DNA of 64,000 bases from Bacilli bacterium (lineage in GTDB: Bacteria; Bacillota_I; Bacilli_A; RFN20; CAG-288), in contig JALCRV010000001.1 of NCBI GenBank assembly GCA_022652945.1, forward strand, positions 62,001-126,000. Direction: 5' to 3'. Below, in pieces: positions 55,977-61,338 of this stretch. The translations under genes and the position numbers were made by a program. Position 1 is the stretch's first letter. Every line of letters starts with the position of its first letter. The notes under the pieces were generated by a model that did no database searches, had not been told where the DNA came from, and saw nothing but the letters and a program-made list of their open reading frames with translations.

Positions 55977-57437
55977 TTATTTTCCTTCCTTATGGAACTT
56001 CTTCTCGTTGTCTTCGCTTTCTTCCTCCGATACAAGCTTGTAGGCTTTGCCAAACTTAGCGAAATTATCGTAGAAGAGGATTATGAATAAAGGCCCGCCG
56101 ATCATGATGATTTTTCCAATAATTGACTGATTGAAGACAATCCAGGCTCCTAAAGGACGGGAAACATAAACTAACTTCCCGACGATTTCTTCCCTGGTCA
56201 AAGTATCCGACATATCAGTCCCGGAGACGGAATTAGTAACATCGACATTGTAATCGATTCCGTTATTGATATTGATGACTTTCACGACGGTCGGATAAGT
56301 TGATTTGCTTCCATCGGAAGCGGTGATTTCTTTCTGGTAATAAATGATATCGCCCTGCAGGACTTCTTCCTTTTTATCTAGAGTCCTGAAGGTCACAAAA
56401 TCGTTAGCGTAAATGGAAGGAGCCATCGTCGAAGAAGCGAAGATCATCGAAATATCAGTGCCGGCCTGATAATCGTTAGCGATATTCTTGCTCCCGATGG
56501 AAATAAGATAGAAATTGGTTGCTAAAGCCGATAAACAAAGCAAAGAGAAGATCGTGTAATTAAAGTACTTGAGCGCTTTTTTGATAAGAGAGGAGAAGTC
56601 TTTCTTCGGCTCGATGACTTTATTTGAGGAATAATCGATTACGACTAAATCCTTCCGTAAAGGCAAAGAAGTATGGTACAAGGCTGACTCCCTTTGGCAG
56701 GAGATAATAATCTCCCCCAGATCAAAAACCGAGAGCAGCAAGACCGCATAAATAAACCCATCGGTCATTTGAAAATCGAACAGATTCTTTAAATACATCA
56801 TCTTCGTTTCCGAAGACATCACCTTATCAAACGAGCTCAAGAAAGCGTAAAGGATAAACCCGATAAAGAAGGCGATAAATAAAAGGACTCCGTATTTTCT
56901 TTCTTTGATAAAAGTAGAGATCGATAAAACCGTAAAAGCGGAAGCTAAAGAAAGAATAAAGCCCAGGATAATCAAATTGAATTGATTACCTAACGATAAC
57001 TGATAATTAAGAATCAAACAGGTTCCTAAAGAAAGCACGAAGACAATCAAATATAAGGACAAAGTATAAAGGACAATCGACAATAGACGGGTATAGACTA
57101 CCCGGTTGGCTTTCTGTCCCATTTTGATCAGCATATACATCTTATTATTGTAAAGATCGTTAAAAGTCATCCGCCGATAGTCGCTATATAAATAGAAGGC
57201 GACAAAGCCGGGAATAATGATATTAATCAGGGAAATGATGGAGAAAAGCGTCTGGTCAGAGAACAGAGTCATCTTCTCTCCGACCACCGTATCTGCCAAG
57301 GTGGAAAAGACCGTGGAGCAGATAAAAGTCAGGACGACCACTAAAACAGCATCGACAAAAATCTTCCATTTGTGGTTTGCTTGACCCACAAAGGGCTTTT
57401 CTAGTTCATCCGATATTGCCGTGGAAGTGTATATCAT
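55977..57437 (-). CDS. ABC-2-like permease fused to a catalytically dead signal-peptidase domain
   Basis: A 486-residue membrane protein I know of no described equivalent for. Residues 1-260 have six transmembrane segments (about 28-48, 63-84, 118-144, 152-174, 182-201, 226-246), resembling an ABC-2 permease. Residues 290-460 look like a SipW/type-I signal peptidase: helix (291-314), ASSTMAPSIYANDFVTF where the catalytic GSMxP motif reads STMAP (Thr337 replaces the nucleophilic Ser), QGDIIYY, EEIVGKLVYVSRPLG and a final helix (438-456). The catalytic His region reads YPTVVKV, so His is also absent. Last gene of the operon, 6 bp after the ATPase-like gene. Confidence 0.72.
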   Translation of the reverse strand: MIYTSTAISDELEKPFVGQANHKWKIFVDAVLVVVLTFICSTVFSTLADTVVGEKMTLFSDQTLFSIISLINIIIPGFVAFYLYSDYRRMTFNDLYNNKMYMLIKMGQKANRVVYTRLLSIVLYTLSLYLIVFVLSLGTCLILNYQLSLGNQFNLIILGFILSLASAFTVLSISTFIKERKYGVLLFIAFFIGFILYAFLSSFDKVMSSETKMMYLKNLFDFQMTDGFIYAVLLLSVFDLGEIIISCQRESALYHTSLPLRKDLVVIDYSSNKVIEPKKDFSSLIKKALKYFNYTIFSLLCLSALATNFYLISIGSKNIANDYQAGTDISMIFASSTMAPSIYANDFVTFRTLDKKEEVLQGDIIYYQKEITASDGSKSTYPTVVKVININNGIDYNVDVTNSVSGTDMSDTLTREEIVGKLVYVSRPLGAWIVFNQSIIGKIIMIGGPLFIILFYDNFAKFGKAYKLVSEEESEDNEKKFHKEGK

Positions 57438-57443
57438 GACTTT

Positions 57444-58448
57444 CTATTCTCCGATTTCTTCGAAAGCATTAGCGACTCTGCCATGATTGATACGGATATC
57501 GCCGATAATAATGCCTCGGCTTTCACATAGCGTAAAGAATTCTTCATTTAAGAAGGCTGACGGTTCCAGATATTTAACGTAGACATAGCCATCCTGAGGC
57601 AAGCAGTCCAGTTCTTTTCCTTTAGCTAAAGAATGGATAATATCTATCAGTTCTTGGCTCTGTTCAGTCTTAATCGAGCAGGTGACCTTATCCCAGTTCT
57701 TATAAAGATCGTTGACCGAAGAGAAGGTCTTCAGTTTGCCTTTGCTTAAGTAAATCACCTGATCGCAGGACATGCCGATCAGTTTATTGTCCCCGGTCCC
57801 GATAATGATGGTCTTCTCTTTAAACATTTGGAATAAGGCCTGGATAACTGAGCATTCCTCATAAGAGAAAACATATTGAGAAGCATTGATAACAATCTTC
57901 TCGGAATCGGAAAGCAAAGCCACCATAATCGAAACGATAAACTTTATGGTTTCAGGCATCTTCTTAATCGGAGTCAGGACATAGGATGCCATCTTGGCTT
58001 CCTTTATATAGTCCAACATTCTTTTCTGTTCGACTCCCGGTTCAAACTCCAGCCCGTGAGACTGACAATAAATATTTCTGATCAGCATCAAATGTTTCAA
58101 TAAAGACATATCTTCATAAAGCATGCTGGAGGAATCGAGATAATAAATCTGCTCCACCACAGCTCTCTTTAAAGCCTTGGTCCCTAAAGAAGAAAGTTTA
58201 ACGTAGCCTTTGTAATAACTACGCATATTGCCGAGTATTTCAATTAAAGCCACCAGCTCTTCCTTGTTGGTAGAAGAGATTCCGACTTTCTGGCCTTTAA
58301 GGATTTCAAAAGAAAGCCCATCCAGAAGAGGAATGAGTTTTCCTTCTTCTTTATAATGCTCGGCGGAGATTAAATCCTTGACGATAATCGAGACGTTTTC
58401 TTTACCGCCTTCTTCGATCGGCTTTATCTCTTTATTATCAGTGCTCAT
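57444..58448 (-). CDS. Degenerate ABC-type ATPase (pseudo-ATPase)
   Basis: A 334-residue protein whose order of segments follows an ABC nucleotide-binding domain: LLDGLSFEILKGQKVGI, GNMRSYYKGYVKL, a signature region and a DQVIYLSKGKL end. Every catalytic motif is lost. The P-loop region (55-64) reads VGISSTNKEE, about three residues too short. The signature (164-172) is MPETIKFIV instead of LSGGQ. Walker B (184-190) is KIVINAS instead of LLLDEP. The H-loop is GTGDN. The reading frame is intact, so this is a selected pseudoenzyme rather than a pseudogene. It overlaps sipW by 4 bp and the permease follows 6 bp later. Confidence 0.75.
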   Translation of the reverse strand: MSTDNKEIKPIEEGGKENVSIIVKDLISAEHYKEEGKLIPLLDGLSFEILKGQKVGISSTNKEELVALIEILGNMRSYYKGYVKLSSLGTKALKRAVVEQIYYLDSSSMLYEDMSLLKHLMLIRNIYCQSHGLEFEPGVEQKRMLDYIKEAKMASYVLTPIKKMPETIKFIVSIMVALLSDSEKIVINASQYVFSYEECSVIQALFQMFKEKTIIIGTGDNKLIGMSCDQVIYLSKGKLKTFSSVNDLYKNWDKVTCSIKTEQSQELIDIIHSLAKGKELDCLPQDGYVYVKYLEPSAFLNEEFFTLCESRGIIIGDIRINHGRVANAFEEIGE

Positions 58449-58984
58449 ACTATCCTCCTGATAAAAAGAGAAATCACATCGCTACGAGGAATCGGGGTCG
58501 GATCTAAAGAGTTATTATTATCGCCTTTAGTCTTGTAATAGATAACTTGGCCTTCCGTATATGTTTCCACCGCTCGATGAGTGACAATCACATCATCAGC
58601 GTTGTAGAAAGTAATGATATCTCCTTCGGAAGCAGAATCTTTATACCCGACGGAAATCTCCGTTGAAGCATCGACCTTTTTAGAAAGGATCACCGAACCG
58701 ATCGGCAGGGTCGGATTCATCGACCCGGTCTGAATATATTCAATCGAGTAATTGAAAAGAAACGGGACACGGTTATTTTCCTTGGCTAAATTAACAACCA
58801 CGATAAAGAAGCAGAGAAGACTGATAATCAGGGCGAAGACGATATCTCCGATTTCCTGATAGATCTTTTTTCTCTTCCTTTTGGCCTTGCTTTCCGGAGA
58901 GTTATAATCTTCGACTTCCTTGTAAAGCTGGTCGAGAGTGGAAGGCTTATTAGCTTCCTGTTCTTTCTTTGCTTCCGTTACCAT
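58445..58984 (-). CDS. sipW: SipW-like (ER-type) signal peptidase I
   Basis: A 179-residue signal peptidase of the archaeal/ER type: one N-terminal transmembrane helix (about 48-66), catalytic Ser88 in IQTGSMNPTLPIGSVI, catalytic His136 in VTHRAVE (where ordinary bacterial enzymes have Lys) and acidic residues in KTKGDNNNSLDP. The second, C-terminal membrane helix of Bacillus SipW is absent, since the protein stops at SLFIRRIV. A polar, charged N-terminal 40 residues is in the cytoplasm. It follows the gene of its likely substrate by 66 bp. Confidence 0.88.
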   Translation of the reverse strand: MVTEAKKEQEANKPSTLDQLYKEVEDYNSPESKAKRKRKKIYQEIGDIVFALIISLLCFFIVVVNLAKENNRVPFLFNYSIEYIQTGSMNPTLPIGSVILSKKVDASTEISVGYKDSASEGDIITFYNADDVIVTHRAVETYTEGQVIYYKTKGDNNNSLDPTPIPRSDVISLFIRRIV

Positions 58985-59050
58985 TTTTTAAAAAAGCGGG
59001 CTTATCGCTAAGCCCACTTATTATACCTTAACTTATCAGGTTATGTCTTG

Positions 59051-59512
59051 TTAGGCTTGGACGCCGGAGCAAGAAATAGCTAAAGTGGCAGTTTTGCCGA
59101 TGTAATTGTTGTTATCAGCGGCATCCGGGAAGGAAACCTTGAAGGAGAAAGTGCCAGTAGACTTAACGTCTTTAGCTAAGACGCAGGTGTAATTAGCATT
59201 ATCGATCGTCAAGGCATTAGCGAGATCGCCGGAAAGGGCAACCGCGAAAGTCACATTGATATCAACTTCGGAAATATTGGCGGCATCATAGTTAACGACC
59301 GAATAAGAATAGGATTGTTCCTCACCAGGAGCGAGCGAGACGGTCGCATATTTGGCAGCGGTCGAATCATCGGCCTCAACCATCACAAACTGCTTAGCAT
59401 TGATATCACCGGATTTTCCATCGGTCGAAGCATTGTACTTAGCGAAGACGGAAGCTCCGATACCAGAAGCGAGAAGAACAGCGGCGCCAGCAATTAACAG
59501 TACTCTTTTCAT
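59051..59512 (-). CDS. Secreted TasA/camelysin-like protein, probable SipW substrate
   Basis: A 153-residue exported protein. The signal peptide MKRVLLIAGAAVLLASGIGASVFAKYN has the features of SipW-dependent signals (short basic start, glycine-rich core, VFAKYNAS cleavage region). The mature 125 residues are beta-rich and alanine/aspartate-rich (APGEEQSYSYSVVNYDAANISEVDINVTF), with two cysteines (YTC, ISC) that may form a disulfide. This is like fibre-forming TasA/CalY-type proteins. It is the first gene of the riboswitch-controlled operon, with AAAGGA before the ATG. The ligand or polymer state is not known. Confidence 0.75.
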   Translation of the reverse strand: MKRVLLIAGAAVLLASGIGASVFAKYNASTDGKSGDINAKQFVMVEADDSTAAKYATVSLAPGEEQSYSYSVVNYDAANISEVDINVTFAVALSGDLANALTIDNANYTCVLAKDVKSTGTFSFKVSFPDAADNNNYIGKTATLAISCSGVQA

Positions 59513-59541
59513 AATGTTTATTCCTTTCTTGACTGGGGTTT

Positions 59542-59577
59542 AAAAAAGCCAGTCGCATTATGTATCTGCAACTGGCT
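59542..59577 (-). terminator. Riboswitch 1 expression-platform terminator
   Basis: Stem GCCAGT (59548-59553) / ACTGGC (59571-59576), followed on the minus strand by TTTTTT (59542-59547). Its 5' arm overlaps the 3' end of the aptamer (AGCCAGTTGC), so aptamer folding and terminator formation compete. Confidence 0.8.
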
Positions 59578-59645
59578 ATCTTGATTTCTGTTCAAGACCC
59601 TTTAGCTTTGCGTCGCACCATCGCTGATGCTTTGCTCGTCAATAA
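59566..59645 (-). promoter_or_regulatory. Class-I (GEMM) cyclic-di-GMP riboswitch 1
   Basis: The minus-strand RNA has the GEMM order: GAGCAAAGC, helix GCATCA-GCGA-TGGTGC with a GNRA tetraloop, GACGCAAAGCTA, AGGGTCTTG...CAAGATAGCC and CAGTTGC. This matches the Vc2-type aptamer (tetraloop hairpin, then GACGCAAAGC, then the second hairpin). It lies between the promoter and the 153-residue secreted protein gene. Since the terminator 5' arm is part of the aptamer, ligand binding should favour read-through (ON switch); this is inference. Confidence 0.82.
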
Positions 59646-59672
59646 TGTAGCACATGCACGATATTGGTGCAA
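59644..59672 (-). promoter_or_regulatory. Promoter of the SipW operon
   Basis: -35 TTGCAC (59667-59672), exact 17-bp spacer and -10 TACATT (59644-59649) with an upstream TG (extended -10). The expected start, near 59637, falls at the 5' edge of the riboswitch aptamer. Confidence 0.72.
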
Positions 59673-60129: not shown

Positions 60130-61194
60130 CTAATACGCCTGAGTCAGAACTTGGATGGAGGTTAAAGAGTTAAGATTTAACTCACCGTCAGCATAGTATC
60201 CAGAAGCGAAGCATTCGACCGGGCTTAAGGCTGTGCCGTTCATTCCTCTTCGATAGATGAAGGATGTATAGTTATCCGCTTCACCGTTATTGGTGTACTT
60301 GGCGAAATAGAAGTCATAGATTCTGTTCCCGCTTTGGTCCTCACCTTCGTAAACGATGGTGTAGCTGTAATTCAAAGGATCAATCGTCGCTCCTTCAGCC
60401 GCTAAGGAATTATAGTAATTCCATTTATTGTTGCTGTCGATTACCAGTTTCTCATTCGTCTTCAAAGCGAAAAGATCAGTGTAGAAAGCACTGCTCTTTT
60501 TAGAAAGTAACGCCAGGGAAGCATCGTAGAAACTACGAGCGGAAGAGATCTGGCTCGCATAAGTGTTCGAAAGATCTTTAGTAGAGAAGGAAGTGCTATC
60601 TAAATAATAGACATAGCTCCAAGTAGGTAAACTGACTACCCAGTATTGGACATAATACTTAACAGACTTGGCAGCTAATTTGGCTTCACCGACAATCGGA
60701 GAGGAGCTAACGCCGTTAGCATCCACCGAATACTTATAGACCGGCCACACCAAGGAATCGCCGGAAGCCGAATAAATGCGGCTAGTATCAATCGGGGTGA
60801 CATAGATATCGTAAGTATTCTTGCCCGTCAGATAGACGGTATAGCTGTAATTAGCAACCTCGCTAGCTTTCGCACCTAAAGCAGAGTTAATATCCGCAGC
60901 CATATCCGAATAGAAGGAACTATCACGGCCGGAACCTTCGTGGTAGCTTTCCACGATTGCACCTTTTTTCTGAATGGTGAAAAAGTCGCTAAAAGAATTA
61001 TCCTGGCCGAAAATCAAAGAGGAGATCGCGCCTTCTAAAGACTCGACATTTTCAGCGACCGTATCAGTCTTGGCATCATTAACGATGCTGTATTCTTGAG
61101 AAATGGTTTTATTGTAAAGCGAAAAAGTCGGAAGCAAAAAAGAGGCCAACAATAAAGAGGAAGCGACAGCGGTAATAGCAATTTTTGTTTTCAT
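60130..61194 (-). CDS. Exported protein of unknown function under riboswitch control
   Basis: A 354-residue protein with signal peptide MKTKIAITAVASSLLLASF followed by LLPTFSLYNKTI, whose SLYN segment resembles the cleavage region of SipW-dependent signals in the neighbouring secreted protein (VFAKYN). The mature part shows no known domain. It contains two similar segments, NYSYTVYLTGKNTYDIYVTPIDTS and NYSYTIVYEGEDQSGNRIYDFYFAKYTN, suggesting an internal duplication of a beta-rich domain. Tyrosine and serine are abundant. The ATG at 61194 has AAGGAGG upstream; a longer frame to 61233 overlaps the riboswitch terminator. Single-gene unit with a terminator. Confidence 0.75.
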   Translation of the reverse strand: MKTKIAITAVASSLLLASFLLPTFSLYNKTISQEYSIVNDAKTDTVAENVESLEGAISSLIFGQDNSFSDFFTIQKKGAIVESYHEGSGRDSSFYSDMAADINSALGAKASEVANYSYTVYLTGKNTYDIYVTPIDTSRIYSASGDSLVWPVYKYSVDANGVSSSPIVGEAKLAAKSVKYYVQYWVVSLPTWSYVYYLDSTSFSTKDLSNTYASQISSARSFYDASLALLSKKSSAFYTDLFALKTNEKLVIDSNNKWNYYNSLAAEGATIDPLNYSYTIVYEGEDQSGNRIYDFYFAKYTNNGEADNYTSFIYRRGMNGTALSPVECFASGYYADGELNLNSLTSIQVLTQAY

Positions 61195-61213: not shown

Positions 61214-61245
61214 AAAAAAAGCCAGCTACACAATGTGCAGCTGGC
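61214..61245 (-). terminator. Riboswitch 2 expression-platform terminator
   Basis: Stem GCCAGCT (61221-61227) / AGCTGGC (61239-61245), followed on the minus strand by seven T residues (61214-61220). Layout identical to riboswitch 1. Confidence 0.82.
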
Positions 61246-61308
61246 TATCTTGATGATTTCAAGACCCTGTAGTTTTCCGTCGCACCATTGCTGGTGTTTT
61301 GGCGTTAT
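61236..61308 (-). promoter_or_regulatory. Diverged class-I (GEMM-like) cyclic-di-GMP riboswitch 2
   Basis: Same order as riboswitch 1: CGCCAAAACACCA-GCAA-TGGTG hairpin with GNRA loop, GACGGAAAACTA, AGGGTCTTGA...TCAAGATAGCCAGCTGC and the overlapping terminator. Two core positions differ: GACGCAAAGC became GACGGAAAAC, and the G before CAAA is C. Overall similarity to copy 1 is clear across about 75 bases, so the two arose by duplication. Ligand specificity or affinity may differ. Confidence 0.7.
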
Positions 61309-61309
61309 T

Positions 61310-61338
61310 AGTATTAATTATTTATATGGAGAAGTCAA
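61310..61338 (-). promoter_or_regulatory. Promoter of the 354-residue exported protein
   Basis: -35 TTGACT (61333-61338), 17-bp spacer and weak -10 AATACT (61310-61315). A 9-bp tandem repeat ATCAGGGCT lies directly upstream (61342-61359). Confidence 0.55.

Follow-up and report, generated by a model that had tools for sequence, protein, structure and literature searches.

We identified a compact minus-strand gene cluster built around two pseudoenzymes at positions 55977-59672 of a 64,000-nucleotide stretch of DNA from a Bacilli bacterium (assembly GCA_022652945.1, contig JALCRV010000001.1; the whole stretch is referred to below as the window). Read from high to low coordinate, it comprises a cyclic di-GMP (c-di-GMP)-I riboswitch, a gene for a secreted protein of 153 amino acids (aa), a SipW-type signal peptidase gene, a gene for a pseudo-ATPase of the ATP-binding cassette (ABC) type, which we call pABC, and a gene for an ABC-2-like permease that carries a dead SipW-type domain as a fusion. 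The last two genes are also paired in two other genomes, the 'Bacilli bacterium' metagenome-assembled genomes (MAGs) STD2_121 and STD2_139 from Sandtown (the two genomes called G023 and G035 below, in no stated order). We infer, with about an even chance of being right, that the locus is a c-di-GMP-induced operon for a SipW-type surface fibre, in which pABC and the permease form a platform without enzyme activity, on which SipW-type precursors dock and are assembled. The locus itself is real and unusual, and each of its elements has a known relative.

A preliminary description of this DNA, made from the sequence alone, had placed four tightly spaced genes behind one promoter. The four minus-strand genes were recovered: the secreted protein (59051-59512), SipW (58445-58984, 179 aa), pABC (57444-58448, 334 aa) and the fused permease (55977-57437, 486 aa). 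Their spacing, in order of transcription, is 66 bp, -4 bp and 6 bp, and the tight arrangement does not extend to the first gap, in which a terminator-like hairpin with a T-run (58994-59019, minus strand; 11 pairs, -16.8 kcal/mol by RNA folding) follows the stop codon of the secreted-protein gene. The same gap holds a possible promoter, AAGACA-18-TATAAT, with a weak -35 element; promoter-like matches in the region occurred at chance level (13 seen, 12.6 expected). A visible Shine-Dalgarno sequence precedes each gene except that for SipW. The product of the gene downstream of the permease contains two ordinary ABC ATPase domains, and since this gene has its own promoter-like sequence (TTGAAA-17-TATAAT, a good match), the operon probably ends at 55977. 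A hairpin at this place is also known from the sipW-bsaA operon of C. perfringens, where a terminator behind the fibre gene allows read-through into the remainder (PMC7395162).

The GEMM-type riboswitch claimed at the head of the operon was confirmed by cmscan, with a match to RF01051 (c-di-GMP-I, GEMM-I) at 59564-59646 (minus strand) that covers the full model (1-87) and scores 54.4 bits against a curated cut-off of 35 bits. A second c-di-GMP-I riboswitch of the same architecture, likewise full-length and above the cut-off (52.5 bits), lies at 61233-61313 (minus strand) and heads a neighbouring gene for a secreted protein; the preliminary description had not included it. In both, a strong hairpin and T-run follow immediately after the aptamer, at 59547-59577 (minus strand; -17.8 kcal/mol, 11 pairs, then UUUUUU) and at 61246-61220 (-20.5 kcal/mol). 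The 5′ arm of the terminator (AGCCAGUUGC.., AGCCAGCUGC..) coincides with the 3′ strand of the aptamer in both cases, the overlap in the first being AGCC-AGUUGC. Given that aptamer and terminator are mutually exclusive structures, the ligand should block termination, and both elements should act as ON switches. Six c-di-GMP-I riboswitches and 12 GGDEF matches were present in the genome, so c-di-GMP is very likely made by this organism.

The first pseudoenzyme, pABC, had been described as an ABC-ATPase fold with no catalytic motifs, and both parts of this description held. The protein matched GldA-type profiles over nearly its full length (residues 41-332, E value 6e-9), and a profile built from three pABC sequences matched the PDB structure 1vpl (E value 7e-10). 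When pABC was aligned with intact ATPases of its own genome and of related ones, the P-loop GxxGxGKST was found replaced by STNKEELVA in the window and by SFNDEEVKV in G035, the ABC signature by MPETIK or LTDTEK, and the Walker B motif LLLDEP by IVINAS or VVANIA; the P-loop Lys, the signature, the Walker B Asp/Glu and the H-loop His were all absent from these two proteins. Judged from the sequences, no known scheme of ATP hydrolysis would work in pABC. Its best-conserved stretch is the tail of its conserved C-terminal domain, IxINxGRVxNxFEE, which sits at the position of the DrrA motif LDEVFL, reported to have a role in DrrA-DrrB assembly; the two may be equivalent. A low-confidence structural model of pABC had PmtCD as its best match (Foldseek E value 3.5e-8), the C-terminal basket domain of PmtCD included.

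The second pseudoenzyme is the domain at about residues 286-455 of the permease protein. Taken alone, it matched TIGR02228 with an E value of 1.6e-5 in the window, and the corresponding domains of G035 and G023 matched SipW/signal-peptidase profiles at 3.3e-9 and 4.1e-7, all three below the curated cut-offs. In the alignment, the catalytic Ser was Thr in all three members, the His was Val or Glu, and the Asp was lost. The fused domain also superposed on the SipA structure 4n31 (Z 8.2, 3.7 Å, 95 residues) in a low-confidence model. A match of the fused domain to the S24 peptidases (Pfam E value 0.001) was attributed to the fold that the two have in common.

No Pfam or NCBIfam match was found for the ABC-2 part of this protein. 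Six helices are predicted in its N-terminal half, and in a low-confidence model they superposed on ABC-2-type exporters; the best matches were NosY (Z 12.7) and PmtCD (Z 12.1), obtained with a helical model of pLDDT (predicted local distance difference test) 50, and helical bundles score high by chance. Of the earlier proposal of an ABC-2-like permease joined to a dead signal-peptidase domain, the domain is thus supported by profile match and triad loss, and the permease half appears plausible from a low-confidence model. PmtCD and NosFY are the exporter types to which both pABC and the permease point, in agreement with the sequence evidence, and sequence profiles support the signal-peptidase and ABC folds; because the models are poor, the fold matches were given little weight alone. 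More broadly, the type V exporters DrrAB, GldA-FG, PmtABCD and NosFY provided the best profile and fold matches of the pair. In these exporters the ATPase motifs are intact, and they are not known to carry a signal-peptidase domain.

Since ATP hydrolysis seems impossible for pABC and three catalytic residues are gone from the fused domain, neither pumping nor cutting would be expected of the pair. It is nevertheless conceivable, if rather unlikely, that the permease is a working transporter with a non-canonical energy supply, exporting a peptide, a lipid or the cleaved signal peptide by means of another ATPase or none, with the fused domain selecting the cargo. The closest folds, the peptide exporter PmtCD and NosFY, are consistent with such a role, as is the H-loop His retained in G023. 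In addition, HlyB and other C39-like domain (CLD) exporters hold their cargo by a dead peptidase domain on an ABC membrane protein (PMC8277102), and there a dead domain serves as cargo receptor on a live exporter; in these exporters, however, the peptidase family is a different one, the domain is cytoplasmic and the ATPase is live. Against transport stand the absence of the P-loop Lys, the signature and the Walker B Asp/Glu from both members where these are visible, and an operon that contains no second ATPase gene.

The remaining two genes were also as the preliminary description had them, a small secreted beta-rich protein with a SipW-type signal and an active SipW-like peptidase. The former is an open reading frame of 153 codons with the Shine-Dalgarno sequence AAAGGA, a SipW/camelysin-type N-terminus and relatives in G035, and is a candidate fibre subunit. 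No match of the window protein to the TasA/camelysin profile PF12389 was found; one of its relatives in G035 matched this profile weakly (E value 0.0044, below the cut-off). The peptidase matched NF046067 (E value 5e-24) and TIGR02228 (6e-18, above the cut-off of the latter), and its catalytic Ser, His and Asp were all in place in the alignment (GSMNP, THRA, GDNN), which suggests an active enzyme. It keeps the N-terminal hydrophobic helix and lacks the C-terminal membrane helix of the aligned relatives, a helix that is not essential to the definition of the S26B family.

The absence of this helix allows an interpretation in which the dead domain, which has kept its own, pairs with the truncated SipW, supplies the missing helix and controls when and where SipW cuts, leaving the fibre protein untouched. 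A second role of B. subtilis SipW, in biofilm control, has been reported (Terra et al. 2012, as related in PMC4292775). G035, however, keeps the pABC-permease pair, and no SipW was found in its 81%-complete genome, in which the only signal-peptidase-like match was the dead domain itself; we therefore consider a regulator or inhibitor of SipW unlikely.

SipW-type genes were also seen elsewhere. A third SipW-type cluster of the window genome (contig C2, L033, 8274-15042, minus strand) encodes two secreted TasA-like proteins, a peptidase with SGSMSEKN in place of SMxP, an ABC exporter that is intact, and an AAA+ ATPase. Another genome of the class has a degenerate SipW-like frame standing on its own (L068, 2116-2700, plus strand) and flanked by active SipW genes, which hints at more than one origin of dead SipW copies.

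The full-length fusion was present in three of the 279 genomes of the order; samples of the class (395 genomes) and of the phylum (392) contained no further one. A single-sequence scan of genome contigs with the permease gave no match, and an alignment-based scan matched the two Sandtown MAG contigs and nothing else. Outside these genomes the permease profile gave weak matches (E values 1e-4 to 1e-15), which covered the signal-peptidase part only; the frames that were read proved to be normal SipW proteins that keep the catalytic Ser and His, not fusions. In all three genomes pABC and the permease are adjacent, with a 6-bp gap or an overlap; identity among members is 24-30%, and the frames are open at 334-340 aa (pABC) and 486-671 aa (permease). 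The relatives are not ordinary intact exporters: the one relative ATPase that is wholly visible has none of the motifs, and both fused domains lack the triad. Losses common to relatives at such identity, with intact frames, argue for function and long-standing retention rather than recent decay. The idea that pABC and the permease are functionless relics of a type V exporter for a SipW-processed protein has in its favour the loss of every catalytic motif and a patchy distribution (three of 279 genomes of the order, none added by the class or phylum samples), and it seems improbable, given that relics would show stops and frameshifts whereas open frames, closely overlapping genes and conservation at non-catalytic positions were observed across 24-30% identity and two families.

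In favour of the proposed c-di-GMP-induced operon, the next gene in G035, 19 bp downstream of the permease gene, encodes a PAS-GGDEF protein. In G023, the missing upstream end of the pABC gene was searched for and not found, and the SipW gene lies on contig C32 in an unrelated cluster. Of 272 other genomes of the order, G035 alone had a good relative of the 153-aa protein (E value 1e-6), and G035 has the pair; its relatives of the protein are secreted and 673-686 aa long. If the two traits were independent, they would coincide by chance with a probability of about 2 in 272, and the coincidence is a single event.

For the proposed surface-fibre operon, the following sequence of events can be suggested. 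Binding of c-di-GMP to the leader would prevent termination and allow expression of the 153-aa protein, and the terminator behind the subunit gene would let transcription pass only partially into the machinery genes, leaving the subunit in excess. SipW, with its active-site residues intact, would remove the signal peptide of the subunit. Like its live relatives, pABC would dock on the cytoplasmic side of the permease, with no ATP hydrolysis and hence no pumping. On the outer face of the permease, the dead domain may keep the fold by which SipW binds its precursor near the signal-peptide junction, and the pABC-permease complex could thereby capture SipW-type precursors, or the truncated SipW, and present them for cleavage and ordered polymerisation. 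More tentatively, and at somewhat less than an even chance, we propose that the complex is an ATP-free fibre-assembly platform that evolved from a type V ABC exporter, with a motor-dead ATPase, an outer dead-SipW receptor and a truncated live SipW, all switched by c-di-GMP.

The closest tested precedent comes from Streptococcus pyogenes, in which pilus polymerisation requires SipA, a dead signal peptidase with a conserved peptide cleft (PMC4049620); the role suggested for our complex is the one proposed for SipA. That role also resembles the tethering of cargo by the dead C39 domain of HlyB. Like the fused domain, SipA of the FCT pili combines a signal-peptidase fold and replaced catalytic residues with a place in a surface-fibre gene cluster, the fibre being a candidate one in our case. 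SipA differs in that it is a stand-alone protein of the type I Ser/Lys lineage that works with a sortase, whereas the fused domain belongs to the SipW (Ser/His) lineage, is joined to a permease, has a pseudo-ATPase partner and has no sortase gene in its operon. This precedent had not been cited in the preliminary description, whose anatomy of two pseudoenzymes, SipW, a candidate fibre protein and c-di-GMP control holds and whose scaffold idea gains from SipA; most of the outcomes named there as refuting it were not observed. Its statement that no system of this composition had been described still stands as far as the literature was searched (searches of the open-access literature returned nothing relevant), but dead signal peptidases had been connected with fibre assembly before.

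Several points weigh against a fibre-assembly platform. The 153-aa protein could not be placed firmly in any family, and its polymerisation is a proposal. In the case of SipA, simple binding of the pilin received no support, either from pull-downs, which failed, or from a mutation that blocks the cleft, which was without effect. The G023 pABC keeps its H-loop His, and the front half of the protein, with the P-loop region, lies off the contig. The AlphaFold models of pABC and the permease, based on three sequences, are poor (pLDDT about 50), which leaves the fold matches beyond the sequence profiles weak. Finally, conservation of all four genes together, one expectation from the preliminary description, was observed in part: the pABC-permease pair occurs in both other genomes, and the complete set was present in the window genome only, the other contigs ending upstream of or inside the ATPase gene.

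Small secreted beta-rich proteins beside SipW are otherwise familiar from TapA-SipW-TasA of B. subtilis, SipW-TasA/CalY of B. cereus and SipW-BsaA of C. perfringens. As described, the TasA, CalY and BsaA operons contain no ABC-like proteins and no dead peptidase, whereas the present locus adds riboswitch control and a SipW without the C-terminal helix. If the proposed function is correct, this would be, as far as our searches went, the first case of a pseudo-signal-peptidase joined to an ABC-type membrane domain. The locus represents an independent lineage: its dead peptidase is tied to a membrane complex within a single polypeptide and has a live SipW and a candidate subunit next to it. These parts make up a defined system in which to ask what dead signal peptidases do, and through a riboswitch the locus would link SipW-type fibres to c-di-GMP.

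The gene behind the second riboswitch of the window (60130-61194, minus strand; start ATG at 61194 with AAAGGAGG) encodes a secreted protein of 354 aa whose family was not recognised and which is a possible second substrate. In an alignment of N-termini, its segment ..TFSLYNKTIS.. was similar to those of the candidate substrates; homology to the 153-aa protein was rejected, as a profile comparison was not significant. Where the genes downstream of riboswitches in this genome were read, all encode secreted proteins with similar N-terminal signals.

On contig C8 of the same genome (L027, 8347-17000), a c-di-GMP-I riboswitch heads a conserved cluster of secreted SipW-type proteins, an McrB-like AAA+ ATPase, an unknown 520-aa protein, a SipW-like peptidase and an EAL protein; both the gene order and a riboswitch of its own recur in genome G003 (contig C41; L105/L143). 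Three further c-di-GMP-I riboswitches, on contigs C10 (L028, 8147-20000) and C14 (L029, 8228-16001), precede large secreted proteins with SipW-like signals, which are followed by proteins of the BspA-like leucine-rich-repeat type. In G035, the sole c-di-GMP-I riboswitch (contig C96, L141, 3615-6140) precedes a GGDEF-EAL protein, which suggests feedback on c-di-GMP itself.

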